Origin: Clusia tigrina
Lineage: Eukaryota > Arthropoda > Insecta > Diptera > Clusiidae
NCBI GenBank assembly: GCA_920105625.2
Contig: OV050032.1
Coordinates: 77,543,879-77,607,878, forward strand
DNA length: 64,000 nt
Direction of reading: 5' to 3'
Made by a program: the position numbers and the translations under genes. Each line of letters starts with the position of its first letter. Position 1 is the stretch's first letter. Under the pieces are notes generated by a model. The model did not search any database. It was not told the DNA's origin and saw only the letters and a list, made by a program, of their open reading frames with translations. Positions 4,156 through 63,713 of the stretch are shown here, one piece after another.

Positions 4156-4179
4156 GGATATCTGCCAGTTCGTCTTCCT

Positions 4180-4242
4180 ATCACATATACATATACATTT
4201 ACATATACATACATATACTCGTACATATACATATACACATAA
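4180..4242. repeat. (ATACAT)n microsatellite
   Basis: Imperfect hexamer array separating the BEL gag scrap from a second endonuclease scrap. It is also present at 19025-19085 and, inverted, at 30236-30296. Confidence 0.85.
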
Positions 4243-4345
4243 GAAATTCTTTGTAGCCGGTGATTTCAATGCAAAACATTCATTCTGGAGATCCCGCCTT
4301 GTCTAAACTTAAGGTAGACAACTTTATGATGACATAAGTACCTTG
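4243..4345 (+). pseudogene. Jockey endonuclease scrap
   Basis: It reads KKFFVAGDFNAKHSFWRSRL with a stop directly after. This is the same endonuclease region as at 165-240, but it keeps the residues deleted there. It abuts the 3' end of an oppositely oriented ORF1. Confidence 0.7.
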
Positions 4346-4379
4346 AATCTAGAGGTTCTAACAACCGTCTTAATATATT

Positions 4380-19222: not shown

Positions 19223-20620
19223 TCATTTTTTAGACATCAACAATTGCATAAGTTGATTTTGAGTTTTCACCAACTCGTGCAACATGCTTTGCATTGATGT
19301 CATAAATTCTGTCATACAATTTGTTAATTTTGATATCATTGATTCTACATTTTGCATAGGATTTGCAAGGCTAGGAATTTCTTCAGATCCAGACTTTACT
19401 ACGTTGGCATATGATCTTGATGTAGAAGCGTTGTCACTGGTCAGTTGCTTATGGGGTTCGATTGATTTGGCAATCTCTGTGTAATGAAAATCTGGTTGCT
19501 GTTTCTGGTCTAATTTATTTTTTACTGCTAAATACACTGGGCAGCCTCTGTAGTTTGCCGTGTGGTTTTCCCCATAATTGCTGCATTTTTTTGCATTTAT
19601 GTTGGATTTGTCAGACAAACACTTGGAGGAATGTTGACGGTCCCCACAGACAACACAAACAGTGCGTAAGGTACAGTACGATTTTGTGTGCCCGTATTCT
19701 TGGCAGTTGAAGCACTGGACAGGGCCTTTTCTTTTGTGTGGTTCTTCAACGGTTATTCGTCTATGTAATAAGTAACGCAGATGGTATATTGGGTGTGTTT
19801 CGCTTCTTTTTAATTTTCTTCCATTCGGTTCAAGTTCTACTTGAAATAGTGGTTTTGGTACTTTGTCTCTGTTTTTAATGTTGAATACCGTTTTTACTTT
19901 AAATCCGGCGATTTCGAGAGAATCTTTGATTTCATTAGTACTTACACAATTCTCAATACCTTTAATAAGAACTACTAGACCTTTACTGCTCTTCAGTTGA
20001 TATGTATAGTAGTTTTTACCATTTTTTCAAGATAGGTAATTGCGGTAATTGCTTTCATTGTATGTCTGTAGTTTCGTTTTCTTTATATTCCCGTTTGTTA
20101 TGGACGTTACATGGAAATTGTTATTCCCTACAAGACTAGCTACAGTTGCAACTAAATCATTTGAGCATCTCTCTCGCAAGTAGAATGGTGGTGGCTTCGG
20201 AGTTTTGGCAATGGAAATGTTTGCAGGAGTTGAGTCAACGTTTTCATTCTCTAATAGTGCAAATCTGTTCTGCCCCAAAGTGTTACTACCTATTTGTTTC
20301 GGAGAGGCAGATATATTCGCCGATTGAGGAGTTAGTCTCGCATTTTTTGCCTGTCTTTTATTTCCGTTTTTTTCTGGATTCAACTTTCGTTTTACTTGTA
20401 TATACCTATCTATACCAGTCTGTATAGTAGCAACATTTCTTATCACATTACTTTTTCCGCCACCTGTGGCTGGCATGACTAACTTACTTGCTGGCGCAAT
20501 TGTGGGTGTAGATTCGCTGTTTAACATTAAAGCAGGAGAACATGAACGAGCCCGATTTAGTTGGTTGGCAACTCTTACAAAGTGAAAAACTAATCCGATA
20601 GTGATAATAAAATTTAACAA
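19223..20620 (-). pseudogene. Jockey-clade ORF1, block B
   Basis: This is the second minus-strand copy of ORF1. The C-terminal frame 19223-19618 (131 aa) ends in SKK and stop. The N-terminal frame 20027-20620 (197 aa) reaches further upstream than in block A. CCHC knuckles lie between (19690-19740 region). Frameshifts near 20030 separate the two halves. In knuckle 3 the residue before GENHTANY is tyrosine instead of cysteine (CSNYGE), a damaged ligand. Its 5' end meets the 5' end of the opposite Jockey element at about 20630. Confidence 0.85.
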
Positions 20621-20971: not shown

Positions 20972-22492
20972 ATGGGTGTAGACCGTACCCCACCTAGAGG
21001 GGAAGGTCAACAACAAGAAGAGCAACAACAACAACAACAACAACAACAACAGCAACACCGATAAAAACAACATCAGGAACAACAACAGCAGCATCAACAA
21101 CTGCAAACACAAAAGAAACCCCTTCTTCAGAATCCGCTCCAAAATTCCTGGAGTCCTCAATGCCCCTCGCCACAATCAAGCTCGTCTTTTCCAAATAAAA
21201 ACAGCTCTCAACAAACTGTCCAACAACAAATTGATCAGCTTCAACGCCAGCTTCAGCTGCTACACAAACAACAGCAACCAGTAGCCTCTCCCCAAGTCAC
21301 AGTAAGTGTACCCTCCCACGACGAGGACTGGAAAACGGTTCTAAACAAGAAAAGGCAGAGAGAGAGTCCAGGTAAGACAAAGACCACTCAAAAACAAGCT
21401 AAACTTGAAAAATACTGGCTAGGAGATCCGAAAGGAACCGAAAATCGATTTTCGTCCCTAGAAGAAGTTGAAGAATGTGACCAAAAAAGCACAGAACATA
21501 AAGAAAAAGTGTCTAAGCCCCCACCAATATTTGTTGACAGAGTTACCAATATAGCTCCTCTAATGAAACTATTGTCTGAAGCTGCTCCAAATTCATACGA
21601 ATTAAAGCTCATAAACAATGAGCAAGTTAAAATCCAGGCATTTTCTCCAGAAGCCTACAAGACAATAGTCAACCAGCTTGAGATAAAAAACACCGAATTT
21701 TTCACCTATAAGCCAAAACAAGAAAGAGGCTTCAAAGTAGTACTGAAAAATATGCACCCATCTATAGGCACAGATGAAATAACCCAAGCCCTGCAAAACC
21801 TCGGTCACTCTGTCACGAATATTTGGAACATAAAGCGAAGAAACACAAAAAAGCCTCTGCCAATGTTTATCATTGAATTTCAAACAAACTCAAACAATAA
21901 AGAAATTTATGAAGTCAAATACCTGCTTCATACAAAAATTGTTTTTGAGCCCCCCCGACCGACTCGCGATATTCCCCAATGCGCTAACTGTCAGCAGTAT
22001 GGGCATACAAAAACGTACTGTCGCAGGAAACCAATGTGCATTAAATGCGCCGGAAGCCACACGTCTTCAGATTGTGTACGTAAAAGCAGATCAGATGAAG
22101 TCAAATGCGCCTTGTGTGAAGGTAATCACCCAGCAAATTACAAAGGTTGTGTAGTCTATAAAAATCTTCAGAAAATGAAATACCCACAATTAAGGAAAAA
22201 CGACAATTTACCCATGAATCCTACTCAACAACAGGAAGTTCTGGTAAATCCCAGTACATCAAAACAAACTCAAAATGTACTTTCATACGCTCAGGCACTG
22301 AAACACTCAACACAAGCAACTAATGAAAACACAACGGCCCTACCAATTAATACTGTTCCTGCAGAAACCCAAGCTCCGAACGAAATGCGAGAAATGATAA
22401 TGCTACTCCGGCAAGTCATGCAACAAATCACAACAATGATGAACTTATTAGTGACCCTCACGACTAAGAATTGCTCATCCTCAATCCCATAA
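20972..22492 (+). pseudogene. ORF1 (gag-like RNA-binding protein) of Jockey element
   Basis: The ATG at 20972 opens a 507-codon frame, continuous except for one TAA at 21062-21064 at the end of a CAA (glutamine) run. The glutamine-rich N-terminus gives way to a basic region (VLNKKRQRESPGKTKTTQKQ), then the conserved PRE/C2HC-associated domain (about 21700-21960). Three zinc knuckles follow: CANCQQYGHTKTYC (21980-22021), CIKCAGSHTSSDC and CALCEGNHPANYKGC. The product normally forms RNA-protein particles with the element RNA. The stop may have arisen by a CAA-to-TAA change; a GTG at 21509 is not needed as a start. Confidence 0.9.
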
Positions 22493-25155
22493 AAATCATT
22501 CTATGGAACGCTAATGGGCTGTCAAAACATTTATTAGAAATTAAAAAATTCCTTAAAACATACGAAATAGATATACTCCTAATATCTGAAACCCATTTCA
22601 CCAACAAAAGCCATTTTCAGATTCCGAACTTTAAGTTTTATCACACCCTGCACCCAGATAATAAGGCTCATGCAGGTTCAGCAATATTAATACGCAATAA
22701 CATAAAACACTGTGAGAGCACATCTTATCGCACAGAAGCTATACAAGCCACGAATATAATTGTTGATGACTGGAAAGGGCCAATTACAATTTCCGCTGTC
22801 TACAGCCCACCTAAACACACAATAAAAATGGAGGAGTATGAGAAATTCTTTAAGACCCTTGGCAATAGATTCCTAGCTGGAGGAGACTATAACGCAAAGC
22901 ACACATACTGGGGTTCCCGTCTCACTACACCAAAAGGTCGACAGCTTTATGCGGCCATTGGAAAATTAAATTTACTCCCTGTCTCTTCAGGTACACCAAC
23001 ATACTGGCCAACAGATGTAAGAAAAATTCCCGACTTGATTGACTTCTGTGTGACGAAAGGTATCATGCTTAGTGATCTTAAATGTAGCCCATGTTTTGAG
23101 CTGTCTTCTGACCACTCTCCAGTTCTCGTCGAGCTTAACAACAGTCTTGCCCTTCTTCCCAGTCAATGTAGCTTACATAATCACAAAACTGATTGGAATC
23201 GCTTCCGATATATGGTATCTTCCACAATTGATTTAAAACTATCACTGAAATCTGAAGAAGATATCATTGCGGCTGTTGAACACTTCAACAACTGCCTGCA
23301 ACAAGCTGCGTGGGACTCCACCCCCACACTAAATGAGCGAAAATCAACGAACATCTCCAAACCTATAAAAGAAAAACTGAGAGAAAAGCGATATGCAAGA
23401 AAAAAGTGGCAACAAACTAGACATCCTGAGGACAAGAAAAAATTAAATGCGCTTACAAAAGAACTTAAAGAGATCCTTAATAACGAACGAAACACCCAAC
23501 TCCATCATTACCTCAGTAATCTCGATGCAACAGCTGCTACAGAATACTCTCTCTGGAAAGCAACTAGGAATCTAAAGAGACCCACAATGTTCCAATCCGC
23601 TTTACGAATGGAAAATAACGAATGGGCTAAAAGTGACCTTGAAAGAGCAGTCACATTTGCCCGACACTTAAAAAAAGTATTTACTCCACAGGAAATCGAG
23701 CCCCCAGCATGTGTAACAGAAGAAGTGAAAAGTGTTCTGAGTAATACCCATCAGATGGACCTACCCATACGTAAATTTTCCAAATCTGAAGTGAAAGCAG
23801 CTATTGATAAGCTAAATATTAAGAAAGCCCCTGGGTACGACCTTATCACTGGAAAAATAGTAAAACAACTTCCAGAAGAAGGAGTGACATATCTTACCTA
23901 CTTATTTAACGCGGTACTAACATCTGGCTTTATACCTCCCCAATGGAAAGTGTCACAATTAAAAATGATTCTCAAACCCGGAAAAAGCGCTGATAAAGTT
24001 GAATCGTATCGCCCAATTAGCTTGTTACCGATTGCTTCTAAACTCATGGAAACCCTTTTCCTGAAAAGACTACTCCCAATTATAGAAGAGCGAAAGCTAA
24101 TTCCAAATCATCAATTTGGTTTCAGGAAAAAACACAGCACAATCGAACAGGTTCATAGGATTGTTGAGTATATACACACTGCATTCGAACATAAAAAATA
24201 TTGTACAGCAGCGTTTCTTGACATCTCGCAAGCATTTGATCGCGTTTGGCACGATGGCTTGCTTTACAAAATAAAAACTACACTCCCCATTAACTACTAT
24301 GTGTTAATCAAGTCTTATCTTACAAATAGATATTTTTTCGTAAAGCAAGGTGAGGAACAATCTGAGCTCCATGAAAGCTCAGCAGGCGTACCCCAAGGAA
24401 GTGTCATGGGCCCAATACTTTATCTACTTCACACGTACGACTTACCATCAGCTGAAGGAGTCACCATAGGTACCTTTGCAGATGACACTGCTGTCTTAGC
24501 TGTTGACACTCTCCCACACTTAGCTTCCTCTAAAATCCAGAGTGGGCTAAACAAAATTACTGACTGGCTAAAAAAATGGAAAATCAAGTTGAACGAAACA
24601 AAATCTGTCCAGGTTACATTCACTCTCAAACGAAACACCTGCCCACCCGTTAAACTCAACGGCATAAATATACCCCAATGTAATGAGGCTAGATACCTTG
24701 GGATGCACCTCGACAGAAGATTAACTTGGAAAACACATATATTTACAAAACGAAAATCACTCGGTATAAAGCTCAGAAATCTACACTGGCTCTTGAATCG
24801 AAACTCCAAAGTCTCAATCGATAGCAAATTGCTCTTGTACTCAGCAATTTTAAAACCAGTTTGGACATACGGTATTCAGCTGTGGGGCACTGCGGCAACT
24901 TCCAATGTTGAAATACTTCAAAGATTCCAATCAAAGACCCTAAGAATGATTGTAAACGCGCCCTATTATGTCACAAACAACCAAATCCATCGTGACCTCA
25001 AAGTTCCTACAGTCGCTCAAGAAATAAAAAAGCTCTCTACTTCGCACAATCTGAGACTCCTAGTCCACCCAAATCCACTGATATCGGAACTCACTTCCAA
25101 CCCCTTCACTTTCATCCGACTGAAGAGAAAATCCACAACAGATCTCCTGTGCTAA
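22489..25155 (+). CDS. ORF2: endonuclease and reverse transcriptase of Jockey element
   Basis: The frame is open over nearly 890 codons. The APE-type endonuclease motifs are present: LLISETHF, GGDYNAKHTYWGS (about 22880), PDLIDF (about 23030) and SSDHSPV (23104). The reverse transcriptase shows YRPISLLPIASK (24008), FLDISQAFDRVW (about 24217), GVPQGSVMGP and the catalytic FADD box (24475). The endonuclease nicks target DNA and the RT copies the RNA there. The first codon where a start is expected is ATA, overlapping the ORF1 stop as ATAA (22489-22492), so translation of this copy is doubtful. No later ATG precedes the endonuclease domain. Confidence 0.93.
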   Translation: MKIILWNANGLSKHLLEIKKFLKTYEIDILLISETHFTNKSHFQIPNFKFYHTLHPDNKAHAGSAILIRNNIKHCESTSYRTEAIQATNIIVDDWKGPITISAVYSPPKHTIKMEEYEKFFKTLGNRFLAGGDYNAKHTYWGSRLTTPKGRQLYAAIGKLNLLPVSSGTPTYWPTDVRKIPDLIDFCVTKGIMLSDLKCSPCFELSSDHSPVLVELNNSLALLPSQCSLHNHKTDWNRFRYMVSSTIDLKLSLKSEEDIIAAVEHFNNCLQQAAWDSTPTLNERKSTNISKPIKEKLREKRYARKKWQQTRHPEDKKKLNALTKELKEILNNERNTQLHHYLSNLDATAATEYSLWKATRNLKRPTMFQSALRMENNEWAKSDLERAVTFARHLKKVFTPQEIEPPACVTEEVKSVLSNTHQMDLPIRKFSKSEVKAAIDKLNIKKAPGYDLITGKIVKQLPEEGVTYLTYLFNAVLTSGFIPPQWKVSQLKMILKPGKSADKVESYRPISLLPIASKLMETLFLKRLLPIIEERKLIPNHQFGFRKKHSTIEQVHRIVEYIHTAFEHKKYCTAAFLDISQAFDRVWHDGLLYKIKTTLPINYYVLIKSYLTNRYFFVKQGEEQSELHESSAGVPQGSVMGPILYLLHTYDLPSAEGVTIGTFADDTAVLAVDTLPHLASSKIQSGLNKITDWLKKWKIKLNETKSVQVTFTLKRNTCPPVKLNGINIPQCNEARYLGMHLDRRLTWKTHIFTKRKSLGIKLRNLHWLLNRNSKVSIDSKLLLYSAILKPVWTYGIQLWGTAATSNVEILQRFQSKTLRMIVNAPYYVTNNQIHRDLKVPTVAQEIKKLSTSHNLRLLVHPNPLISELTSNPFTFIRLKRKSTTDLLC

Positions 25156-28925: not shown

Positions 28926-30095
28926 TAAAACGAAAGTTGAGTCCAGAAAAAAACGGAAATAAAAGACAGGCAAAAAATGCGAGACTAACTCCTCAATCGG
29001 CGAATATATCTGCCTCTCCGAAACAAATAGGTAGTAACACTTTGGGGCAGAACAGATTTGCACTATTAGAGAATGAAAACGTTGACTCAACTCCTGCAAA
29101 CATTTCCATTGCCAAAACTCCGAAGCCACCACCATTCTACTTGCGAGAGATGCTCAAATGATTTAGTTGCAACTGTAGCTAGTCTTGTAGGGAATAACAA
29201 TTTCCATGTAACGTCCATAACAAACGGGAATATAAAGAAAACGAAACTACAGACATACAATGAAAGCAATTACCGCAATTACCTATCTTGAAAAAATGGT
29301 AAAAACTACTATACATATCAACTGAAGAGCAGTAAAGGTCTAGTAGTTCTTATTAAAGGTATTGAGAATAGTGTAAGTACTAATGAAATCAAAGATTCTC
29401 TCGAAATCGCCGGATTTAAAGTAAAAACGGTATTCAACATTAAAAACAGAGACAAAGTACCAAAACCACTATTTCAAGTAGAACTTGAACCGAATGGAAG
29501 AAAATTAAAAAGTAGCGAAACACACCCAATATACCATCTGCGTTACTTATTACATAGACGAATAACCGTTGAAGAACCACACAAAAGAAAAGGCCCTGTC
29601 CAGTGCTTCAACTGCCAAGAATACGGGCACACAAAATCGTACTGTACCTTACGCACTGTTTGTGTTGTCTGTGGGGACCGTCAACATTCCTCCAAGTGTT
29701 TGTCTGACAAATCCAACATAAATGCAAAAAAATGCAGCAATTGTGGGGAAAACCACACGGCAAACTACAGAGGCTGCCCAGTGTATTTAGCAGTAAAAAA
29801 TAAATTAGACCAGAAACAGCAACCAGATTTTCATTACACAGAGATTGCCAAATCAATCGAACCACATAAGCAACTGACCAGTGACAACGCTTCTACATCA
29901 AGATCATATGCCAACGTAGTAAAGTCTGGATCTGAAGAAATTCCTAGCCTTGCAAATCCTATGCAAAATGTAGAATCAATGATATCAAAATTAACAAATT
30001 GTATGACAGAATTTATGACATCAATGCAAAGCATGTTGCACGAGTTGGTGAAAACTCAAAATGAACTTATGAAATTGTTGATGTCTAAAAAATGA
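28926..30095 (+). pseudogene. Jockey-clade ORF1, block C (inverted copy)
   Basis: Plus-strand copy of the ORF1 in blocks A and B. 28926-29155 gives the basic N-terminal part. A frameshift at about 29153-29160 moves it to the frame ending at 29289, and a third frame runs open from about 29305 to 30095. The third frame holds the PRE-like domain (IKGIENSVSTNEIKDSLEIAG), three knuckles (CFNCQEYGHTKSYC, CVVCGDRQHSSKC and CSNCGENHTANYRGC, all ligands intact) and the SKK end. It is the best preserved of the three copies. Confidence 0.87.
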
Positions 30096-35890: not shown

Positions 35891-36480
35891 CGTGCGCGTA
35901 ATTGTGGAAAGCAGTCGATTTAAGCCAGTTCTGGTGAATGGACTTAATGTTAAATGTCTTATCGACACGAGATCAGACGTGACGATAATCAAAGAGACTG
36001 TCGTAAATAAAATAAATGGAGTCCAAATGTTTAAAACAGATTCTGTGTTGCGAGGTCTAGGGAACTGCACGACGAAACCAGTAGGGTCGTTCGTGGCTGA
36101 AATGATTGTGGATCAGCTGCAACAAACCAAAAAATTGTGGTCGTGCCAAGCTGCAAAATGGATTGCGATGTACTATTGGGGTATGATTTCATCAAAAAGT
36201 TTCGTGTTTCTGCTGACAGGAATAGGTTTACGTTTGAAAGACTGCAGGATGAACATCCACCACTGGATGAGTATGGTGCTAATGTGTATAATGTTTTTGA
36301 AATCTCTAATCTCATTACAGCTCCGCCACAATACCAGAGACGCGTCGAGCAGCTAATTGAAGATTCTTATCGGTCACCCCCAGTTGGAAAAAAGCAGTGC
36401 CCAATAGAAGATAGTCCCAGACGGAGTTGTTGTTCCGTTCCGTCAGTCGCGGTGTCGTTTGTCATTTACAGAGGCAGAAG
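35891..36480 (+). pseudogene. pol: Gypsy B protease region
   Basis: The frame continues from the knuckles to [20 protein letters not shown] at about 35938-35997. The active-site glycine of DTGS is arginine (also in copy 1), so the master copy may already have been impaired. A frameshift near 36100-36137 leads to DCDVLLGYDFIKKFRVS, the conserved second half of the protease domain, and then linker to 36480. Confidence 0.85.
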
Positions 36481-37357
36481 CAGTCAAAAATCAAGTTGAC
36501 CAGTGGCTTACCGAGGGTGTAGTGCGTAAATCTGTGTCAAACGTGGCAAGCAGAGTAGTGGTTGTGAAGAAAAAAGATGACACGCTGAGAGTTTGTATAG
36601 ACTACAGGAAGCTGAACAGCATGGTATTACAAGACTGCTTTCCGGTACCTTTGGTTGATGACGTGCTACAAAAGTTGCAATCGGCAAAATTTTATACCAT
36701 AATGGACCTAGAAAATGGGTTCTTTCATGTGCCAGTAGAAGAAAAGAGCAGAGCTTATACAGCATTTGTGACCAGAGAAGGCCTATTTGAGTTCAACAAA
36801 GCACCGTTCGGTTTCCGAAGCTCACCCGCTGCTTTTATTCGCTTTGTGAACCACATATTCCAAGATCTGATTATTGAAGACGTAATGCAGTTATACATGG
36901 ATGACATCATTATTTATGCAGTTTCACTGGATGAATGCATGCGGAAGACGAAACAGGTGTTGTCGACGGCAGCGCAGTACGACCTGAAAATAAGTTGGAA
37001 GAAATGTAAATTTTTGCGGTCCCATATTAGCTTTTTAGGCCACGACGTTGAAAATGGAAAAATCTGGCCCGGGAAAGAAAAAACAGCGGCCGTTAGTCGT
37101 TTCGCCGCTCCGGCAAATATTAGAGCAGTTCAATCATTTCTAGGTCTCACCGGGTTTTTGAGGAAGTTCATCCCTAGTTATGCACTTTTGGCACGTCCTC
37201 TCACAAACCTGCTGAAGAAAGATGTTGACTTCAGTATGGGTCCAGCAGAGCTTCAATCAATGGAGCAGTTCAAACTGGCGTTGACTGAAGAACCAATCCT
37301 GCACATTTACTCAAGAGATGCATTGACCGAGCTGCATACTGATGCCTCTGCATACTG
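36459..37357 (+). pseudogene. pol: Gypsy B reverse transcriptase
   Basis: The open frame carries LRVCIDYRKLN (about 36587), YTIMDLENGFFHVP (catalytic aspartate, about 36694), FGFRSSPAAF, MQLYMDDIIIYA (catalytic YMDD, about 36886-36921) and the FLGLTGFLRKFI connection motif (about 37137). The frame ends just after HTDASAY because 16 bp (GCATACTGATGCCTCT) are duplicated at about 37334-37365, shifting the start of RNase H. Confidence 0.92.
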
Positions 37358-37740
37358 ATGCCTCTGAAGTCTAAAGACGGTTACGGCGCAGTACTGTTGA
37401 AAATATTTGACGGTAAGCTTCATCCAGTTTACTTTTGGAGTAAGAAAACGTCGCCTGCAGAATCTAAGCAACACAGCTACATTCTGGAAGTTAAAGCAGC
37501 ATATCTGGCGCTAAGAAAATTCAGACACTATTTATTGGGCATACGGTTTAAGTTGGTCACGGACTGCGTTGCATTTAGGCAAACAACAACCAAGCAGGAT
37601 GTTCCAAGAGAAGTAGCACAGTGGATATTATATCTCCAGGATTTCAACCTGGAAGTAGAGCATCGAGCGGGCGATAAGATGAAGCACGTAGACTACCTCA
37701 GCCGCTACCCACAATCATGCCTAATGATATCAAATGAACT
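37358..37740 (+). pseudogene. pol: Gypsy B RNase H
   Basis: After the 16-bp duplication the frame reads GYGAVLLKIF, then LEVKAAYLALRKFRHYLLGI (with the catalytic glutamate) and FKLVTDCVAFR (aspartate), ending at the VDYLSR tail (aspartate). The asparagine or histidine normally after TD is cysteine here. Confidence 0.87.
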
Positions 37741-38594
37741 CTCAGCGCGCGTGGAAAAAGCTCAACGAAATGATGAACACATTAAAGCTATCACCGAGCT
37801 TTTGAAGGAGCGTTCTTATGAGAACTTTAAATTGAAAGGAGGTCTGCTATTCAAAGTGGTTGACGGAAATGAGTTACTGATCGTACCCAAGCTGATTGAG
37901 CGCGAAATTATTCAACAATCGCACGAAGTTGGCCATTATTCGGCAGTCAAGACCATGCACAATATTCAGCAACAGTATTGGATACCACATCTTGAAAACA
38001 AGGTATCAACATTTATTTCTAATTGTATTAAATGTATCATTCACAGCAAGAAGTTGGGCAAGCAAGAAGGGTTCCTCCATTGCGTCAGTAAAGTTCACGT
38101 TGCACATCGATCACCTGGGTCCTGTGGACGCAACGTCGAAGCAGTATAAGTTCATCTTGGCCATGGTCGATGGGTTTTCGAAATTTGTTTGGCTTTTTCC
38201 AACTAAGTCCACAGCGAAAGAGGAAGTCATTAAAAAGCTGAAAGAGTGGTCCGACGTGTTTGGTTTCCCCAAGCGCATCATAAGCGACAAAGGTGCAGCA
38301 TTCACTTCGAATGCATACGTAGAATTTCTAAATGATAATATGGTCGAACATGTCTGGTCTACAACTGGAGTCGCATTCACTTCGAATGCATACGTAGAAT
38401 TTCTAAATGATAATATGGTCGAACATGTCTGGTCTACAACTGGAGTCGCAAGAGGGAATGGCCAGGTAGACCGTGTAAATCGTTCGATTCTATCGGTTAT
38501 CGCGAAGTTATAAGCAGATGAGCCAACCAAATGGTTCAAATATGTGGCACAAGTACAGAGGACTATCAATTCTCACATACACAATTCAACACAT
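37741..38594 (+). pseudogene. pol: Gypsy B integrase with 75-bp tandem duplication
   Basis: The zinc module shows HEVGHYSAVKTMHNI and CIKCIIHS, a normal HHCC pattern. The core follows in another frame: LHIDHLGPVD (first aspartate), IISDKGAAFTS (second aspartate) and GQVDRVNRS, where the usual catalytic glutamate position reads aspartate. A perfect 75-bp tandem repeat (38298-38372 and 38373-38447) inserts 25 residues between the second aspartate and the third catalytic site, which should distort the core. A frameshift near 38080 and a stop at 38511 also break it. The 55588-56050 copy lacks the duplication. Confidence 0.9.
38298..38447 (+). repeat. 75-bp perfect tandem duplication in integrase
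   Basis: Two adjacent identical units starting GCATTCACTTCGAATGCATA. The frame is kept. The duplication is absent from the related sequence at 55591-55665. Confidence 0.95.
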
Positions 38595-45277: not shown

Positions 45278-45973
45278 GTGGCTGTTCGAAATGTAACAGA
45301 AAACACAATTCACTGCTGGACTTGGGAACCAAAAACAAAACATACGTTAGAACCCAAAGCGGCCAATTCCTCAGCTACATCAGCAGCAGCCAATATATTG
45401 TCGGCATCCCAAGGCCATGTTTTGTTAGCAACAGTCAGAGTAACGATCACGGCAAGCAACGGTCAATCTAATGAGTTCAGAGCCATCTTAGATTTCAGCT
45501 CACAGGTCAACTTTGTGACCGAACGGCTGATCAAGCGGGTAGCAATTACTTCAAGCACCGCAACGCTCCGCATTGAAGGCATTGGTCACAGCAGAAAAAC
45601 GGCAAACCAGCGAGTCAACATCCAACTCCAGTCACGAACAAGCAGTTTTTCTACAAGGATAGAGGCATTTGTATTGCCAGATATTGTCCCAATGCAACCG
45701 GCACAATCTCTGAACAGCTCATCATGGAGAATACCGAAAGAAGCGTTACTAGCCGATCCTCACTTCATACGCCCTGGCAAAATCGACATTTTGCTTGTCG
45801 CTGAATTTCACCATCAACTACTCCTAACCGGGCAAATAAGGTAAGGAGAAAATCTCCCAATCCTACAAAACAAAGTGCTTGGTTGGGTGGCAGCTGGAAA
45901 AATCTGCACTCAAGATTCCACCACCGCAACATGCGGGGTATTGACAAATGGGGATAAGCTGTTAGATGAGTCA
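45278..45973 (+). pseudogene. pol: BEL/Pao protease (DUF1758-like), interrupted
   Basis: The frame reads GHVLLATVRVTITASNGQSN, then FRAILDFSSQVNFVTERLIK. The expected catalytic DSGS-type site is DFSS, so the key Ser-Gly context is damaged. HFIRPGKIDILLVAEFHHQL and VLGWVAAGK follow. A frameshift/stop at 45842 is visible. The pol frame is cut at 45973 by the 9.15-kb Gypsy insertion and continues, in a colinear frame, at 55127. Confidence 0.88.
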
Positions 45974-47616
45974 TGTAACGACTCCTTTTCTATAGCTGGG
46001 ATAGACTCAGCGGCTTCCTGGGGTCGTGTACAGAAAATTTATAAATTTAATTCCACCAGGGCTATTATATTTAAAGTTACTTAATTTATTTAAAATATAT
46101 TAATAAAGTTTACTACTATGGACTTAGTTAGTCCTAACAATACTATTGAATTGTACTTAGGTCTATCACTTGGGGTAGTACTCTTCGCGTGCCTAGCTAA
46201 GGTTTTATTTTTGTTGTCCTTGTCCCTATAGGCGAACTGTCACTTTACAGATCTATGTGCCTCAGTTAGAAAACGATTGAAACCAGATGTTCTCACTGAG
46301 GCTTTAAGTTCTGGGAGCGTATGGGTCTTAGCGAGAAAACGATTGAAAACCAGATGTTCTCGCTAAGTCCTCAAGTTCTCGTAGCGTATGTTACTTATGT
46401 CCTTGTCGCTATAGGCGAACTGTCACGTTGCAGATCTAAGTGCCTCAGTTAGAAAACGATTGAAAACCAGATGTTCTCACTGAGGCTTTAAGTTCTGGTA
46501 GCGTATGGGTCTTAGCGAGAAAACGATTGAAAACCAGATGTTCTCGCTAAGTCCTCAAGTTCTCGTAGCGTATGTTACTTAGTGAGAAAACGATTGAAAA
46601 CCAGATGTTCTCACTAAGTCTCTAAGTCTCTGTATCGTTTGTGTCTCAGTGAGAAAACGATTGAAAACCAGATGTTCTCACTGAGTTCGTAGCGTATGTG
46701 TCTAGTAGAATAGGTGTTGTCCAGTCGGCGGTATGTAGAAAAATAGATCTAATCTCGTCGACGGTATATAGCAAAAGAAGCTCTGATCTATTCGGCGGTT
46801 TGGAGTACACGAGAGGTCTGAACTCGTCGTCGGAATGCAGTAGAAGAGCAGGTCTGATGTCGTCGGCGGTATGCAGCAAAAGAGCAGGTCTGATGTCGTC
46901 GGCGGTATGCAGCAAAAGAGACCTACTCCTCGAACGACACGGCTTATATAGTCTTAAACGACCTCCACTGCCAGTGTATAGTGTTGTTGGCTGGCCGTTG
47001 TTTGAAGTTCCACTCCCGTTGGTCGGCGTCGCTTGTTGCTAAGCCATGCTCGTTGTTGTTGTAGTGGTTTGTCCTTTGATCACCTTCATCGCTTTGTTGT
47101 TGTTCTTCTGTTTGTTGTTGTCCTGATCATTTGTCCTTTGGCAACCTTCAATAGTGTTTTGCTATTGTGGACATTTGCCCTTCGTTCACCTTTGCAGCTT
47201 TGTCCATCACTCAATTATTTTATGTATAATTTTCTTCTTTTCCTCTTTGTGCTTTGTCCGTACTGGTGGCATGCGTAGCGATCGTTCTGTCGTGCTACTT
47301 TTGTGTTTTGTATTCGTTTCAACATGTCGTTGATATATTCTTTAGTGAACGAACGTATTCGGCAAGCTCGGTTCCTACTGGGTACTCCACTTCTGGGCTT
47401 TGCTTGTATTTGTTGTAATAATCCATATGTGGGTGTCACTTTGAGTTGGAATTAATTCAATGTTGCATTGCATTAGCCGTGAAGGCTTTTGCTATTTTCT
47501 TAAATGCCATACTTGGGTTTGTTACTCATGGCGTGTGTGTGTATAAAGGTTCCTAAACGGCGCTCGTTGGTTTTGTTGTGAGGCAAAATTTATATTTGTA
47601 AATTTTGGTCCTCACA
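45974..47616 (-). repeat. 3' LTR of the ULP2-carrying element
   Basis: 1643 bp. In minus-strand sense it begins TGTGAGGACC and ends GAGTCGTTACA. It contains six related hairpins (46259-46685), a 33-bp tandem array (46845-46920), and CAA/GTTGTTG-rich DNA (47040-47150). Open frames in it (46698-47042 and the overlapping minus frame) are repeat-derived. Confidence 0.93.
46259..46685. repeat. Array of six hairpin units in 3' LTR
   Basis: The conserved loop AACGATTGAAAACCAGATG is bracketed each time by an inverted repeat. Stems include CTTAGCGAGAA with TTCTCGCTAAG (46328, 46511), TTAGTGAGAA with TTCTCACTAA (46578) and CTCAGTGAGAA with TTCTCACTGAG (46645). Units are spaced 60-115 bp. The same six are in the other LTR (53700-54130). 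Confidence 0.9.
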
Positions 47617-47925
47617 CGCCCTCTCCACTTTCCGGTGGAAGTAAATGGTAGTCCTCTCCCGTATGCGTACTATACGATATGGTGGTATATTGAAGCGGAC
47701 TCTGCCATATTTCCTCGGAGTGTGGGCCTTAAGTGCCTGCACCAGACTTGGTGGTAGTTGCGTAGCTTTGGGTCCATCTAGTTCGGCGTTGCTCTCAAAA
47801 ACTATATCTGACCATCGAGTTTCTGGGGTGTTGGCCGTGCATTCGTCTGTTGTCTTCGGTGTAGCTGGTGTCGTCTTCTGCCTCTTCCAATTCCCATCAG
47901 AGGTGTCGTCGGCGCCTGAAGAGTT
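47617..47925 (-). other. 3' untranslated region of ULP2-carrying element
   Basis: Between the ULP2-like stop and the 3' LTR. It holds the polypurine tract next to 47617 and no further gene. Confidence 0.7.
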
Positions 47926-48794
47926 TCACCTTTCTGGAGTGGATTCTGATTTTAACCGGGAGTCGGTAGGCTTATTTAGACACAGTTGCTTGAGGATATG
48001 GATTATCTCTCGTCTCTTCTGCCGGATCGTATCATCTGTGTACCATTTGTTTAGATCGGCTGATCTCCACTTGTCGCTGCCTATGGCTTGGGTAAAGAAA
48101 CTCTCCGCATTTTGCAAGGTAAACACACCACAGTCCGTCTGGCTATGTTGTTGTGGCGTCTTTGGGACATAAACCGGTATGTTGTTACCATCGAATGTGG
48201 CGGGTGGCATTCCTCCAATTTTCGCCCTGAATTCCTCCTGGTATTGACGAGCTGCTTCTGCTTCACGTGTGTAGGATCTCTTTACCATGGAGTCGAAAAT
48301 TAAAATTGTAGTGTCTTGTTGTCCTGTCGCAGCTGCACCCGGGAAACATATGATGATAAGGTACCAGTTCTGATTTTGGTGGATAGGAATCATTATGAAG
48401 TCTTTCTGGAAAATATTGTCGTTTTTGGTCCATCGTCTGACACGTTGATGTTGTTTTTCGGGCGTGTCAGGCACTTTCGTAAGTGATGAAAAGAAGTGTG
48501 TGCTAAATATATACAATTTTTCCTGTTGACTGCGGGGTTGAGGTTATGTCGAATCCACTTGAGGTAAAAATCTATGATTATATCATTCAGCAACTGGCCC
48601 CCCTGTAGGCGTGCGACGTCGTTTTTCCGGATGCACAATCCGACTACGCCGGTTGGGTACACCAGGAGTATTTCCTCTTGTTGGTCTTCGTCTTCATCTC
48701 CTGAACTTATCTCCAGTGTAGGCAGTTCCTTGGTCCATGGTGTCTCAATGTTGACACGTGTTAATTTTGTGTAGGCCATTTTTGCATTGTTCAT
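47926..48794 (-). pseudogene. ULP2/SENP6-7-like SUMO protease (C48) in env position
   Basis: Two overlapping minus-strand frames form one intronless C48 peptidase domain of about 290 residues. The first (48794 to about 48520) has an acidic stretch then ILLVYPTGVVGLCIRKNDVA and LLNDIIIDFYLKWIRHNL, the substrate-groove start of ULP2-type enzymes. The second (48516-47926) has RVRRWTKNDNIFQKDFIMIP, NWYLIIICFPG, ILIFDSM and PQQHSQTDCGVFTLQ. Catalytic Asp (48292-48294), Gln and Cys (48130-48132) are present. The catalytic His position is Asn (48367-48369). A one-base frameshift at the A-run (48517-48521) separates the frames. Such enzymes remove SUMO chains. It lies about 190 bp after the integrase stop and before the polypurine tract. 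Confidence 0.88.
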
Positions 48795-48986
48795 CTCTAT
48801 CTTGGATTTTTTTAACTTTGACTTGATACTTACTTGTTGCCAGCTAGTTTCTCAAAGAGGATCTTGGCTGTGTGGCTGTGAGCTTTATACGCGAAACTTT
48901 TTTTTTCTTCGGGAAACGGTAGTTTGTTGTTTTCTCGGCTTCTCCCTCGTTCTTTGTCAACGGGCTCTTTTATCAGTTTTCTTGTA

Positions 48987-51900
48987 TTAATTTCCCCCAT
49001 TCCCTGACCTTCGTGGAAGGGTAATTTGACCTTCGCTGGTGTCAGGTGTACAGTACGGTTTTAGTTCACTTATGTGGGCAGTTTTTTTTCGTCTACCTCC
49101 CTGCTGTGCTAACGTCACTATTACAGGAGAACTGAAATTTTCTACTCTATATGGGCCATCGTAGCGTGACGCCAAGTTAGCTGCGAAATGATTCGTGGCT
49201 TTGGACAGGTGGTGCTGCTTGACTAATACCATCTGCCCAATATTAAGTTTCCATGCTCTATGTCGTAAGTTGTAATGTCTACCCGGATCCTGTGCAGCTC
49301 GTTCCAAATTGCGTCTAACGAGGGTGTAAATTTCCTTTAGTTGTGCCGTTCGCTCGTCGAGACTTCTGGTTAATTGTCCAGTTCCTATGGTGACTTCGTC
49401 ATACATGGCTCTTGGAAAACGTGGTTCCCGTCCTTGTACTAGGTACGCGGGGCTATATCCCGTAGTTTCCGAGACACTTGTGTTTATTGCCAGCGTTAAT
49501 TCCGGTAGTAGATCGTCCCATTTTCGCTGTTGCTTGTTGGCAAACTGCGATATCATCGTCTTCACTGTACGATTTGTGCGCTCAACCGCGATCTCTTGAG
49601 GCGTGTAAGGTGCAGTGAATTTATGTCGTATACCGTAGTGCTGCGTGAACTTGCGAAACGTTTTGCTCGTGAACTGGGATCCATTATATGTGACTAGAAT
49701 CTTTGGGACCACGAAGCGTGCAATGATCCGTTCCCGGAAGGCCCATTGTAAAGTCTCAGTAGTGGCTTTCCGGAATGGTACCATTTCTGTCCATTTTGTG
49801 AATTTATCACAAAACACCACCATCATGGTGTTCCAATGCGTGGAACGAGGTAGTGGTCCCACAAAATCTGCGCAGAGAATTGCCCATGGTTCATCGGGTA
49901 TTTGGGTTAGCATTTTCCCCGCAGGCTGCTGTTGACTGCTTTTGTACTCTTGACAAAGTTTACACTGGCGTCCATATCGGCTAATATCCCTGAAGAAACC
50001 TGGCCAATAGTACCTATTGGCTATCCGGGCGATAGTTTTCCGGATACCCAGATGTCCTGCTGTCGGTGCATCGTGGTTTTCTCTTAGAATGCGTTCCCTC
50101 AATGGTCTGGGAACGCATAACTTCCATGGAGTGCAGTCTTCATCGCCTGCTCGATTTGGTGTATGTCTGTAGAGTTGTCCATCTTCGATGGCATAATTCG
50201 CGTATTTCATGGGCTCCGCCATCACTTCCGCCTTACGTTTCTTCCACCAGTTGCAGTTCTGCTCATGTTCTTCGTGTACTTTCACACCTCGTGCAGGTTC
50301 TATCGGCTGTCTCGAGAGTGCGTCTGCCAACACGTTGAGTTTTCCCCGCCTGTATTGCACCTCAAACGAGTGCTGTTGCAGGTCCAGTGCCCACCTGGAT
50401 ATGCGTCCCGAAGGACTCTCAATAGAATTTAACCATTTTAGCGACAGATGGTCTGTAATCACGGTGAACCGGTAGCCCTCGAGATATGGCCGCATCTTTC
50501 TTATACCCCACACTATGGCTAAGCACTCTTTTTCCGTTGGTGAATAATTCTGCTCCGCTCCATTTAAGTGTCGGCTGGCGTATGCTATTACCCGCTCTGT
50601 TCCTTCGATTTCTTGGGTAAGTACAGCACCCAAACCATAGTCACTAGCGTCCGTCTGTAATATAAATCTTTGCGTGAAGTCAGGACAGGTGAGGATTGGC
50701 GCCTCTGTTAGTTGTTGCTTTAACTGCTCGAACGCTGTTTGTTGGTCTTCGGTTCACTTGAAGTGCTTACCCTTCTTTAGTAGTGCTGTCAGGGGGTGTG
50801 TGGTTTTAGCAAAATCAGGTACGAAGCGTCGGTACCAAGATGCAATGCCTAGGCACCGTCGTAGCTCTCGTATATTTTGTGATGGTTTTAATTCCCGAAT
50901 GGCCGCCACCTTATCAGGGTCCGTGTGGATACCTTTCTCACTGACTATGTGGCCGAGATATTTGATCTCGCTGCAGAAGAAAGCGCACTTCTCTCGATTG
51001 AGTTTTAAATTTGCTTCTCGCAATCGCCTGAAGACTTCGGCAAGATTTTTCTGGTGTTCCTCAAGAGTTTTTCCTGTGACGATTATATCGTCTAAGTAGG
51101 CGAAGGCGTAGGGCTCCAAATCGGGGCCTATTATTCTATCCAAAGCTCTCTGGAAAGTTGCCGGTGCAGAGTGTAGCCCGAAGGGCATGACCTTCCATTG
51201 GTAGAGTCCCCTACCTGGTACAGTGAAGGCTGTGTATTGTTTGCTTTCCTCCTCCATGGGAATTTGCCAATACCCGTTCTTTAGGTCCAGACTGCTGGTG
51301 TACTTTGCTTCGCGTAAGCGGTCCAGGATGTGATGTATCCGTGGTAGCGGATAAGCGTCTGGAATGGATCTTGCGTTCAGTTGTCGATAGTCGACACACA
51401 GTCTCCAACCTCCATCCTTCTGTCGCACGAGTACAATTGGGGCACTGTGAGGGCTGTGGGACGGCTATATGCAATCTTTTGCCAACAGATCATTCACTTT
51501 GTTGATCACCTCCTGTTGCGCTGGGTTTCTTGGATAGTATCTTTGTTTTATTGGTCTATCATCACGCATCACAATTTTGTGGCTGGTAATGTTGGAGACG
51601 CCTGTTTCCTCGTTGAATTTACTTAGCTCTGTAGTTAAGAATTGTTGAATCCTTTCCTCCTCTGTGAGGGCCTCTTCCCGAATGGTCGTGCACAATGTAA
51701 AATCTCGGAGTTGCACGCCATCGGCCTGGGGTCCTAGTGTGACTTCTTGATCCCCGCATCTTATTTTTGTGCCTTGCTTCATCATGAAGTCAAGACCTAG
51801 GAGTAGGTCATCTGTAGACTCGGGCATCATTAAGCAGTCTAGTTCGCAAAGTTGTTCTCCTAGCTGTATGTTCACCCTGAGTACTTCTGTTATTTCTCGA

Positions 51901-52085
51901 GTGCGCCCGTCTGCCATACGTGTGCGTATGTGTGTGGGGGTTACCCCACCTGTGATTGCACATAAGTGGCGGCTAAGGCGTTCGCTGACGAAGCTCCGCG
52001 TAGCTCCGGTATCGATGGTGGATGTGACTTGGATGGCGCCAATGGTGACCGCGGCACAGATACGCTGTCCATCGTAGCGTAAAAT
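48987..52085 (-). pseudogene. pol: Pol of ULP2-carrying element: protease, RT, RNase H, integrase
   Basis: One frame of about 1030 codons with only two stops (TAG at 51462-51464, TGA at 50751-50753). Protease: STIDTGATRSFVSERL (about 52000-52020). RT: WRLCVDYRQLNARS, TSSLDLKNGYWQIP, and YAFAYLDDIIVTG (about 51075-51110), then YLGHIVSEKGIHTDP. RNase H: LQTDASDYGLGAVL, TEKECLAIVWGIRKM and VITDHLSLKWL. Integrase: HLGIRKTIARIANRYYWPGF, CKLCQEYK, CADFVGPLPRS, VTYNGSQFTS, VERTNRTVKTM (catalytic Glu), then a GPYRVENF C-terminal module. ITDNGSQF is ITYNGSQF-like here (VTYN), so the second catalytic Asp is Tyr. Ends at 48987. Confidence 0.95.
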
Positions 52086-52087
52086 AC

Positions 52088-53325
52088 TTAGTGGTTTTGA
52101 GGACTGTTGTTGGTGGGCTGCACCATGCCTCGTTGCTGGCGGCAGCCCCGCTCGTTTCCCCCTACCGTCCTACAGCATTCAACTGTTCTAGTGCCTCTCT
52201 TTCCGCACTCCCAACAGAAAAGTACTTGGGCAATGCGGCAGTGTCGCGCTATGTGGTCTGACTGACCACATCGTCTGCATGCTGTTCGTGGATTTATAGG
52301 TAATACATTGTTGGTACAGTTGGCCGGTGCTACTTGTCGGTTCCACGTTTCGCGTGGGTACATGCGCTCGACCCGTGGTTGTATCTTGTGGCGTGTTGGT
52401 GGTGGTCGTGGTGATGATGGTCGTGGTGGTGCTGGTCGTGGTGGTGCTGCTCGTGAAGTATCGCTGTCACCACGTATACCCTCGAGGTCTTCCGCCATTT
52501 CCACCAGTTCTTCAAGCGTATCGAAATCCTTTCGCCGGACATACCACTGGTATTCCTCCAGGCTGTTGCGAAAGATTCGTTCTAATTTCTGGGCCTCCGT
52601 GTATCCTGCGTGAGGCATCAGGTTTTGAAGTTCTACCACGTACGGTTTGAAGTGTTCACGTGGGTTTTGCCGTCGTTGGCGAATTCCATCCTACAGCTTT
52701 TCGAAGTACCTGGTGGGTAGGAAAAACTTCAAGAAGTCCTTTTTGAATAGCACCCAATCGACCCATGCTCGATTGTTGTTTCTATACCAGAGCAGAGCAC
52801 GCTCCTTTAGGAGTTCTGGCATAGTTCGAGGCAGCATGTGCTTGTTTAGTCCATAGACTTCCGATAATTCTTCTACTCGCTCTATGAAAGCTATCGGGTC
52901 ATGCCCTCCATCAAGGACCATTTCCCAACGTGGTCGATGACTGCCGAGTCGATTGCAACCCCGCTTCGCGAGACTTCGGGGAGTACTGTCTGGAACGCGG
53001 TATCATATACAGCTGGCACATTTCCGGCTGCCCATAGCGTATCTTTCTTCGTGGCTGTCGATGCTCCGAGGCTTACAGGCCGCTCTGCGCTGGGGCTAGC
53101 TCTCAAGTGTAAACTGGGTCCAGGCGACAAACTCCTAGTGTGTCCGGCCTGTAGCTCTGCCAGCCGAACCTCCTGGTCTAGAGTCATCTCTGTGTCGGTG
53201 ATGAACTCCGCAAGCCTCTTTCGTAGCTCTTCCACAGGGCCCGTGGCCTCTAGGCCAAACTCGACACAACAGACTACCAGTTGGTCTTTCCGCACGGTGT
53301 ACACCCAACTAGTCTTTCCCATCAT
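52088..53325 (-). pseudogene. gag: Gag of ULP2-carrying element
   Basis: The first frame (53325-52891) starts with a SAP-like helix pair (VEFGLEATGPVEELRKRLAE). A frameshift near 52915 leads to the capsid-like part (GGHDPIAFIERVEELSEVYG, ERALLWYRNNNRAWVDWVLF), interrupted by a TAG at 52688-52690. The C-terminal frame ending at 52088 continues with an Arg/Pro-rich stretch and two knuckles: CRRCGQSDHIARHC and CWECGKRGTRTVEC. Overall about 410 codons, a normal length for this type of gag. Confidence 0.9.
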
Positions 53326-53416
53326 GTGTCAGACTCTGGTGAAGGGGCTTGAATTGGATAATCTAGCTCTGTTCTATTTACTCTCCTTATTCTGAGAGTC
53401 CCTGCTTGAGCGCCAC

Positions 53417-55122
53417 TGTAACGACTCGTTTTCTATAGCTGGGGTAGACTCAGCGGCTTCCAGGGGTCGTTTACAGAAAATTTATAAATTCAATTCCACC
53501 AGGGCTATTATATTTAAAATTACTTTATTTATTTAAAATATATTAATAAAGTTTACTACTATGGACTTAGTTAGTCCTTACAATACTATTGAATTGTACT
53601 TAGGTCTATCACTTGGGGTAGTACTCTTCGCGTGCCTAGCTAAGGTTTTATTTTTGTTGTCCTTGTCCCTATAGGCGCACTGTCACGTTGCAGATCTATG
53701 TGCCTCAGTTAGAAAACGATTTAAAACCAGATGTTCTCACTGAGGCTTTAAGTTTTGGTAGCGTATGGGTCTTAGCGAGAAAACGATTGAAAACCAGATG
53801 TTCTCGCTAAGTCCTCAAGTTCTCGTAGCGTATGTTACTTATGGCCTTGTCCCTATAGGCGACCTGTCACGTTGCAGAGCTATGTGCCTCAGTTAGAAAA
53901 CGATTGAAAAACAGATGTTCTCACTGAGGCTTTAAGTTCTGGTAGCGTATGGGTCTTAGCGAGAAAACGATTGAAAACCAGATGTTCTCGCTAAGTCCTC
54001 AAGTTCTCGTAGCGTATGTTATTTAGTGAGAAAACGATTGAAAACCAGATTGGCTCACTAAGTCTCTAAGTCTCTGTATCGTTTGTGTCTCAGTGAGAAA
54101 ACGATTGAAAACCAGATATTCTCACTGAGTTCGTAGTGTATGTGTCTAGTAGAATAGGTGTTGTCCAGTCGGCGGTATGTAGAAAAATAGATCTAATCTC
54201 GTCGACGGTATATAGCAAAAGAAGCTCTGATCTATTCGGCGGTTTGGAGTACACGAGAGGTCTGAACTCGTCGTCGGAATGCAGCAGAAGAGCAGGTCTG
54301 ATGTCGTCGGCGGTATGCAGCAAAAGAGGAGGTCTGATGTCGTCGGCGGTATGCAGCAAAAGAGACCTACTCCTCGAACGACACGGCTTATATAGTCTTA
54401 AGCGACCTCCACTGCCAGTGTATAGTGTTGTTGGCGGGCTGTTATTTGAAGTTCCACTCCCGTTGGTCGGCGTCGCTTGTTGCTAAGCCATGCTCGTTGT
54501 TGTTGTAGTGGTTTGTCCTTTGATAACCTTCTTCGCTTTGTTGTTGTTCTTCTGTTTGTTGCTGTCCTGAGTATTTGTCCTTTGAGCACCTTCATCGCTT
54601 TGTTGTTGTTCTTCTGTTTGTTGGTATCCTGATCATTTGTCCTTTGGCAACCTTCAATAGTGTTTTGCTATTGTGGACATTTGCCCTTCGTTCACCTTTG
54701 CAGCTTTGTCCATCACTCAATTATTTTATGTATAATTTTCTTCTTTTCCTCTTTGTGCTTTGTCCGTACTGGTGGCATGCGTAGCGATCGTTCTGTCGTG
54801 CTACTTTTTTGTTTTGTATTCGTTTCTACATGTCGTTGATATATTCTTTAGTGAACGAACGTATTCGGCAAGCTCGGTTCCTACTGGGTACTCCACTTCT
54901 GGGCTTTGCTTGTATTTGTTGTAATAATCCATATGTGGGTGTCTCTTTGAGTTGGTATTAATTCAATGTTGCGTTGCATTAGCCGTGAAGGCTTTTGCTA
55001 TTTTCTTAAATGCCATACTTGGGATTGTTACTCATGGCGTGTGTGTGTATAAAGTTTCCTAAACGGCGCTCGTTGGTTTTGTTGTGAGGCAAAATTTATA
55101 TTTGTAAATTTTGGTCCTCACA
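53417..55122 (-). repeat. 5' LTR of the ULP2-carrying element
   Basis: 1706 bp, same ends and hairpin array as the 3' LTR. It has an extra ~58-bp copy of the TTTGTCCTTTGA...CTTCTGTTTGTTG segment near 54515-54630. One loop-stem unit is damaged (54024-54065, TTGGCTCAC). Confidence 0.93.
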
Positions 55123-55126
55123 GTCA

Positions 55127-61986: not shown

Positions 61987-62856
61987 ATGACTTCCGACAA
62001 CATGTCAATGGAAGAGCTGGTTCGTCGCGCATTGACCATTCAAACACTGATATCAAGCTATAAGAAAACAGCTCACGAACGAAGGACATTAGAATTCGTG
62101 AAAAAAAGCTGCAAGAACTTGATAATCAATGGCAACAATTCAACCAATCTGACGTTGTGATCCGGAAAAGCTATGGGGATGACACTTCTCACCCATACTT
62201 TGCGAAGGACATACACGCAATGGTGGGTGCCAAATATTATAAGCTTCGCGAGGAAATGCAAGGCACTATCAATAAGCTGAAGGCATCGAAGATTCTCCCG
62301 AAGACAACAACACCAGTGCCAAGAGCACAATCGTCTGGACTAGTACGGCTACAACCACTAACTCAGGAAGGTGGGGCAATGCAACAACAGTCCCGTTCGC
62401 AACCCGATCTGTCGTGGCGACAATTCCGAGATTTATTCATGGAACTGGTGGACAAGCAGCTCATACCACTGTGCCAAAAAATGTGGTACCTGAAATCCAG
62501 CCTTATAGGAGAAGCAGAAGCCCTCATTCGTCATCTCACATCGGCAGACAACTACGTGACCGCATGGCAAGTGATCAACGAACGGTACGACAACTCGAGG
62601 CATTCAGTTAACGCAGCTTTGTGTCGACTATTTACGCAAACTACATCAAATCTCGAGAGTGCTATGAACGTCAAATTACTGCATGATACAGCGCGAGAGT
62701 GCATTTTGAGCCTTCAGAATTTGGGTCTTGAGACTTCATCATGGGACCCAATTCTGATATTAATCCTAGTTCAGCAGCTCAGCAAGTCAACGCACGTTGT
62801 TCCCGTCATGAACTTCCTAATATGCGCCGCTGCCCGGTGCTGGAGCTGCCATGACC
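61987..62856 (+). pseudogene. gag: BEL/Pao gag, second element (3' truncated)
   Basis: ATG at 61987 (MTSDNMSMEELVRRALTIQT). A frameshift in the A-run at about 62100-62106 moves it to the frame that continues from 62157. That frame contains DLSWRQFRDLFMELVDKQLI, KMWYLKSSLIGEAEALIRHL, the ENY-type AWQVINERYDNSRHSVNAAL helix and NVKLLHDTARECILSLQNLG: the DUF1759-like gag core. It is cut at about 62817-62856 and joined to unrelated DNA. Confidence 0.88.
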
Positions 62857-63713
62857 TGCCATAAGTAAAGCACAGCTGTGCTTTGCTGAATCGCGGGGTA
62901 CGGCAGATTTAGCACCGGATGGCGGACAACCTTTGCTGAAATATTCAGCCGCCTCGTGGTATCACGAGCCACGAGCGGCGAGTTTTCTGATTTTCCGATC
63001 TCTTCTTTTATCAGCCTTCAACCGGCAACAGTCGACGAACTTCGCTTGTGACTTTCATCAACTCTACGTTTGGGGCGTAATCAAAGTTTATTAACTTTTC
63101 TTTTTGTTTACATTTTTGCTTTTAGCTGTGTATATTGTTTTATTAGTTTATTAATTTATTGAACTGTAAAATTAAATAAACATGAAGTAAACATATGGTC
63201 CTTCAACCTAGGATTGGAACCAGGTGAGTGTAACTTCATAATTTTATATAATTATAAAAGTTATATATGTAGATCTATTTCTATAATTTTTATGTACAAA
63301 TTAAAACTATAATTTATGTGTAATAACTCCAGTTCGTAAATATATGCACTTGGTGTGTGTAGACTCGTGCAGACAATTGTCGGCCACTGTGGCGTAAACA
63401 GAAACAACAAAAAAAACGAATATTTAGTAAGACACAGTTGCACATATTTTAGAGTGAGAACATTACACATATCTTCACTCATTCTGCGCATTCCGCTTTA
63501 AGTTGCTCTGTCTTGCGGTATGCTGTACACACGACAGAGTAAACGGTTTCGCTGCTGCAGCGGGCGCCGTTGTTTAATTTAAATTTATTGGTGCGTTTAT
63601 TGGGAATTTGCTCGTTACGGTTTTGGTGGCGGCGCCGGCGCTGCTGAGTACGAATTACGAAAGTAGGTCAGTGCGATCAGCTGACGTACTGCCGTACAGG
63701 GCCGGTTCAGTGG
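62857..63713. other. Unassigned interval, GC-rich at its end
   Basis: No gene recognised. A perfect 18-bp palindrome AAAGCACAGCTGTGCTTT lies at 62867-62884. The 3' part (63550-63700) is unusually GC-rich for this window. It could be another LTR or unique host DNA. Confidence 0.4.

Follow-up and report, generated by a model that had tools for sequence, protein, structure and literature searches.

Positions 45970-55126 of the 64,000-nt stretch of DNA analysed herein (the window) are occupied by a minus-strand Ty3/Gypsy element with two LTRs, the sequence GTCA at both ends and remnants of gag and pol (Table 1). The LTRs with their short target duplication, and the pol order protease-RT-RNase H-integrase, which is intact in the relative L037, are those of a Ty3/Gypsy element. 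An earlier note, made from the letters alone, had described a complete element; the LTRs, GTCA, RT, RNase H and integrase were borne out, whereas the gag zinc knuckle scored below threshold and gag-pol survives only as remnants. The 5' and 3' LTRs differ by 41 substitutions over 1643 aligned sites (K2P 0.025). The purine-rich tract adjoining the 3' LTR presumably has the function known for such tracts in LTR elements generally, and the DGPYRV near the integrase end is one that we take to be GPY/F-like. At the aspartic-protease position the window frame has no Pfam match itself, and in the open pol of L037 the N-terminal part matches gag-asp_proteas. An errantivirus would carry env between the integrase and the 3' LTR; the sole coding remnant found there is a C48 (SUMO protease) gene, and none of the seven frames scanned gave an env-type Pfam match. 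C48 matches occur at this single place within the 64,000 nt.

Table 1. Features of the Ty3/Gypsy element and of its C48 gene, in window coordinates
Feature	Position	Strand	Basis
Left target-site duplication, GTCA	45970..45973	.	Sequence read
3' LTR, with tandem repeats of 184, 67 and 36 nt	45974..47616	-	LTR-LTR alignment, TRF, repeat search
Whole C48 (SUMO protease) gene remnant	47593..48797	-	tblastn with open relative L031
Purine-rich tract adjoining the 3' LTR	47617..47630	-	Sequence read
Frame 2, catalytic half of the C48 domain	47926..48516	-	PF02902 E=1.4e-19; SENP7 6.4e-25
Catalytic-His codon, Asn in the window copy	48367..48369	-	His in 44/46 fetched copies
Frame 1 of the broken C48 gene, ATG start, LLNDIIIDFYLKWI	48393..48794	-	Open frame; alone no Pfam match
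RNase H and integrase frame, DGPYRV near its end	48987..50633	-	Pfam
Reverse transcriptase frame	50754..51428	-	PF00078 E=3.5e-41
Frame at the pol aspartic-protease position	51465..51917	-	Open frame; no Pfam match itself
Gag fragment with zinc knuckle	52088..52639	-	PF00098 E=0.0077, under the curated cut-off
N-terminal gag fragment	52891..53325	-	Open frame; assigned by position alone
5' LTR	53417..55122	-	LTR-LTR alignment
Right target-site duplication, GTCA	55123..55126	.	Sequence read

Past the integrase stop (48987) and before the purine tract comes the C48 remnant, whose 3' end overlaps both the tract and the edge of the LTR. In a tblastn search with the open relative L031, residues 6-119 aligned at 48797-48456 and residues 93-408 at 48537-47593, giving an acidic N-terminal part, the C48 domain and a C-terminal extension into the LTR edge. 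The gene had been placed at 47926-48794; the C48 match does lie inside this interval, but the interval consists of two overlapping frames and the remnant spans about 48797-47593. The Peptidase_C48 model scored 71.2 bits on 47926-48516 (minus strand) against a gathering cut-off of 20.7, so that the possibility of the domain not being C48 falls away. The best solved-structure matches were SENP7 (6.4e-25) and then yeast Ulp2 (5.4e-11), ahead of SENP1/2/5, and it is by these E-values that the gene is placed with SENP6/7/Ulp2, as had been proposed. A chance match is ruled out by the Pfam and solved-structure matches together. The element C48 shares with SENP6, SENP7 and Ulp2 the landmarks HxRVxxWTK, HWYLAIICFP, FDS and DCG and a His-Asp-Cys triad. 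The window copy itself is dead, while many relatives are open, because it is split over two frames, ends at a stop at 47926 past which the relative L002/L031 continues, and has Asn at the catalytic His.

When the 1.21-Gb genome was searched with the 196-residue frame, at least 150 C48 matches were scored from 501 candidates, and 111 of 150 had no internal stop (a hand count, with some matches partial). Of the copies, 20 varied ones were retrieved together with 4.2 kb of upstream and 2 kb of downstream sequence. The integrase of the window family lay upstream of C48 in 18 of the 20, confirming the env position of the gene, and some of its RT was present in 16. In one copy (L041) a DDE_1 transposon sits between integrase and C48. 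No matching pol was found within 4.2 kb in L042, which has BEL/Pao frames upstream instead, or in L048, where nothing was recognised upstream. The proviso that this copy alone might have the domain therefore does not apply, and a one-copy insertion or artefact is ruled out by the same counts. L037 has a fully open pol of 1051 residues with an open C48 frame of 392, and L040 a fully open pol of 1118 with an open C48 frame of 422. Another C48 lineage (L052 and L053, frames 444 and 427) lies in the same pol family, with an RT 81% and 61% identical to that of the window. Counting six re-fetched places once, 41 of 46 fetched copies retain the complete catalytic triad, which the window copy itself lacks. 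In a side observation, L046 (sense 3286-5127) has a 614-residue open frame with two tandem C48 domains, the first truncated.

The product has about 400 residues, and its lineages are about 45% identical. A shared N-terminal hydrophobic-Ser-acidic stretch (e.g. TIQISSGDEE, PLLLSSESESE or IILTSEDE) precedes the C48 domain, after which come a Ser/Asp-rich stretch closed by WKRxK and, at the C-terminus, an RVRFxxPPYRV block. The N-terminal stretch resembles a SUMO-interacting motif. A regular expression for the motif matched six of eight sequences; since 18-38% of shuffles of those six matched too, the possible motif is not significant by itself and serves only as a hint.

The dN/dS of the C48 domain, a comparison across copies foreseen at the outset, was 0.137-0.215 in four of six pairs, those with finite dS (L031-L033, L033-L035, L033-L036 and L035-L036), values that are rough since three of the four include L033, a mosaic. 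For comparison, dN/dS was 0.045-0.056 for RT (L031 vs L033 and L034) and 0.066-0.082 for integrase (L033 vs L034, L035 and L036), in both cases at dS 1.1-1.35, and 0.13-0.63 in closer pol pairs. These values came from four RT and four integrase rows with internal stops written as X, leaving out the aberrant pairs with the L036 RT (0.11-0.54). Constraint on the C48 product is looser in its C-terminal part (0.19-0.30, and 0.76 for L033-L035), and the N-terminal part (38-41 codons) gave 0.23-0.96. The C48 gene is under purifying selection, weaker than that on pol, and evolves faster than RT and integrase, the values being rough. In L033, the N-terminal part of the gene is L035-like and the domain is closer to L031, which suggests that recombination may also take place inside the gene.

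The host ULP2 gene lies elsewhere (G000 C4:32484760-32485952; L051), split into two pieces that differ in frame, an apparent intron separating the domain halves; a host gene adjoining a transposon is thereby ruled out as the source of the window's C48. The long insert between the domain halves of the host gene is absent from the element C48, as is any counterpart of the intron, and the element C48, unlike the host SENP6/7-type gene, has its own WKRxK and RVRFxxPPYRV blocks. In a tree of 54 rows, a branch (100/99) separates the 15 element proteases from the host gene and 38 other SENP6/7-type sequences. The rows included 35 of the best 120 of 442 protein matches plus P0001, P0003 and P0004, picked by hand; the 442 came from a search with the host-gene alignment, two earlier protein searches having given 1 and 4. 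The host gene groups with the higher flies Drosophila, Teleopsis, Haematobia and Glossina (100/99), whereas the element proteases form their own branch and are not nested in flies, in a tree that flags long branches. From the place of the host gene we take the source to be a schizophoran fly. The tree supports a single element-protease lineage. AU tests reject no fly clade (all flies p 0.33, higher flies 0.35, host gene 0.20), and a fly donor, including a recent capture from the host fly, would be compatible with them. The earlier note's intronless capture thus stands in part: the apparent intron is indeed absent, but the branch is not nested among the flies. One scan of viral contigs gave no relative.

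Two closely related elements can carry very different C48 genes. For example, DNA identity between L037 and L050 is 98-100% across gag, RT and RNase H and on into the integrase (L037 sense 1-2750); it then drops to 91, 76, 66 and 71% over the rest of the integrase. The C48 genes are unalignable in DNA; where the C48 frame ends, identity recovers to 93-98% and stays there into the LTR. L044 and L045 compare with L037 in the same manner, except that L044 has one 250-base window at 85% and L045 a gap at 2001-2500. The C48 proteins of L044, L045 and L050 are 52-53% identical to that of L037, as against 95-99% for RT, and in the exchanged pairs the C48 silent sites are saturated (pS 0.82). As a control, L043, which has the same C48 type as L037, is 85-97% identical to it throughout the exchanged block. 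Because near-identical flanks enclose a diverged integrase end and an unalignable C48, a block of about 2.2 kb, from mid-integrase to the end of the C48 frame, was replaced. A block starting at the last integrase codons is ruled out by the identity profile, in which the start lies inside the integrase. The L044-type C48 is young, since 27 of 28 sites of its 35-base pattern were exact with up to 3 mismatches allowed. That varied C48 versions go with 3' regions 93-98% identical speaks against a strict match between protein and LTR.

The gene is also lost. An RT search scored at least 150 of 25,339 candidates, and many open 1051-residue pols were not among the listed C48 matches. Eight loci without a listed C48 were fetched (L054-L061). 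Four of them (L054-L057) share a common junction at which about 1.2 kb of an L037-type C48 gene has been removed, with the last 30 or so C48 codons left as a scar beside the integrase. Allowing up to 2 mismatches, 265 genomic sites have the junction and none the reversed control pattern. An array at C1:208.52-208.73 Mb holds 58 of the 100 junction sites listed, leaving at most 207 dispersed. For at least 9 of the 100, matching by hand placed an open 1051-residue pol at the distance expected. With up to 3 mismatches, the C48-bearing L044 type has 28 sites and the L037 type 8, a total of 36 vs 265 junction sites. The C48-deleted derivative, which keeps pol and LTR, is commoner than the related C48-bearing types. 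In three more of the eight loci (L059-L061) the integrase is fused to a C48-like tail that recurs at 86 sites, probably a second loss of C48, judged by a tail of just 12 residues, part of which coincides with the purine tract. The same C48 deletion is found with two integrase C-termini, L054 and L057 as against L055 and L056 (L050-like and L037-like), and because copies sharing the deletion differ in this way, the pol end, too, has evidently been shuffled. The array itself (G000 C1:208516560-208733033) has its 58 junction copies on one strand at a spacing of mostly about 2.8-3.5 kb, and part of the retrotransposon seems to have turned satellite there.

That the C48 gene is kept under selection, replaced and deleted suggests that it likely helps these elements against transposon silencing. 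ULP2-type enzymes remove SUMO, preferably from chains. We propose, with a probability of roughly one half, that the predicted ULP2/SENP6-7-type protease borne by this Ty3/Gypsy element strips SUMO in trans from the transposon-silencing machinery. The protein would enter the nucleus by means of its conserved WKRxK block, and the possible N-terminal SUMO-interacting motif might hold it at SUMO chains, where SUMO would be taken off Panoramix, Su(var)2-10 or chromatin at element loci. Silencing of transposons in Drosophila is reported to require SUMOylation, including that of Panx, and piRNA-guided silencing to depend on the SUMO ligase Su(var)2-10 (PMC9406493, PMC13195609). Precedents for element-borne counter-silencing are VANC (PMC5735166) and TART with nxf2 (PMC7785250). 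Tethered Ulp1 is reported to restrict the transcription of Ty1 in yeast (PMC8585004), and deSUMOylation could therefore act in the opposite direction.

A trans-acting product would be available to all copies in the nucleus, so that copies which have lost the gene could profit from those still carrying it. A shared nuclear enzyme would fit both the success of the C48-less copies, with their open pol and same LTR, and the young alternative C48 type. We entertain, more tentatively than the silencing role itself, an arms race combined with a public-goods game, in which a host deSUMOylase has become an exchangeable weapon against the SUMO-dependent piRNA pathway, and copies lose it, free-ride and re-arm with another version by capture of a cassette. 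The abundant C48-less derivative is explained equally well by a gene that is dispensable, or useful but dispensable. The suggestion in the earlier note that SUMO removal could help the element is a deduction, and the abundant gene-less copies show that an element can spread without carrying the gene.

Three other roles were weighed against SUMO removal from the silencing machinery. The protease might act on the element's own Gag or integrase, or on host repair factors, during nuclear entry or integration, as with the Ulp1 and OTU domains of Ginger, which are suggested to activate DNA repair factors. Ulp1 domains recur in the DNA-integrating elements Ginger and Mutator (PMC2836005), the swapped block joins the integrase end with C48 as if the two cooperated, and the conserved basic blocks would suit a nuclear complex. 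Nonetheless, the open pol of L037 retains its own aspartic protease, which makes a polyprotein role unneeded, and C48-less derivatives multiplied, some with an open pol and with either type of integrase end, so that we hold this role to be unlikely. About as unlikely is a passenger, captured once and now decaying or kept only by hitchhiking with pol. It would account for a deleted derivative that outnumbers the C48-bearing types of its family, for the dead window copy and for the faster evolution of C48 relative to pol. Against it stand a dN/dS of 0.14-0.22 in the C48 domain, a triad kept in 41 of 46 copies, and the different open version that took over in a young expansion, where 27 of the 28 sites match the pattern exactly. 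A SUMO binder or decoy whose chief use is not proteolysis, e.g. the exclusion of related elements, would recall the exchange of immunity or surface genes in that near-identical elements carry different cassettes, but it is very improbable, as a pure binder would not need catalytic residues conserved in 41 of 46 copies.

Mobile elements with Ulp1 domains have been described, namely Ginger (Ginger1), Mutator, NeSL and Utopia, and in Ginger1, NeSL and Utopia the domain lies inside the transposase or RT protein (PMC2836005, PMC4640811). By contrast, the C48 considered here is of ULP2 type and has a frame of its own, 3' of pol, in an RT-bearing LTR element instead of forming part of a DNA-transposon transposase; it has also been swapped and lost. 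In errantiviruses and other Gypsy elements with env, too, an extra gene lies between integrase and 3' LTR, which here is a SUMO protease and not env. Among the open-licence PMC papers listed, a scope outside which Repbase reports and subscription papers fall, no description of a C48 or SUMO protease in an LTR retrotransposon was found, and within that scope a ULP2-type gene in such an element appears new. An abundant LTR family with a selected, swapped and lost SUMO protease would make two open questions directly testable: whether animal retrotransposons have counter-measures to piRNA silencing, which is relevant here because SUMO is known to be needed for piRNA-guided silencing in flies, and whether trans-acting weapons create cheaters.

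The VANC protein of Arabidopsis VANDAL elements is likewise an element-encoded trans factor proposed to act against silencing, and its targets, like the 3' regions of the C48 elements, have lineage-specific tandem repeats (PMC5735166). VANC is described there as sequence-specific and as acting on DNA methylation; no homology to C48 is claimed, and the swap speaks against LTR targeting in the present case. The LTR repeats of 184, 67 and 36 nt lie in the window at 46215-46920 and 53697-54364, and repeats of 76, 58, 55, 61 or 21 nt are found downstream of C48 in other lineages.

Besides the C48 element, the window holds two more Gypsy-like pols, with an RT 37-40% identical to that of the C48 element, an endonuclease and RT frame, and a DUF1759 frame; these other mobile elements are at 9146-10474, 36408-38149, 22468-25155 and 62064-62864. 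Two PRE_C2HC frames of equal length, 267 residues each, lie on opposite strands at 19223-20026 (minus) and 29292-30095 (plus).
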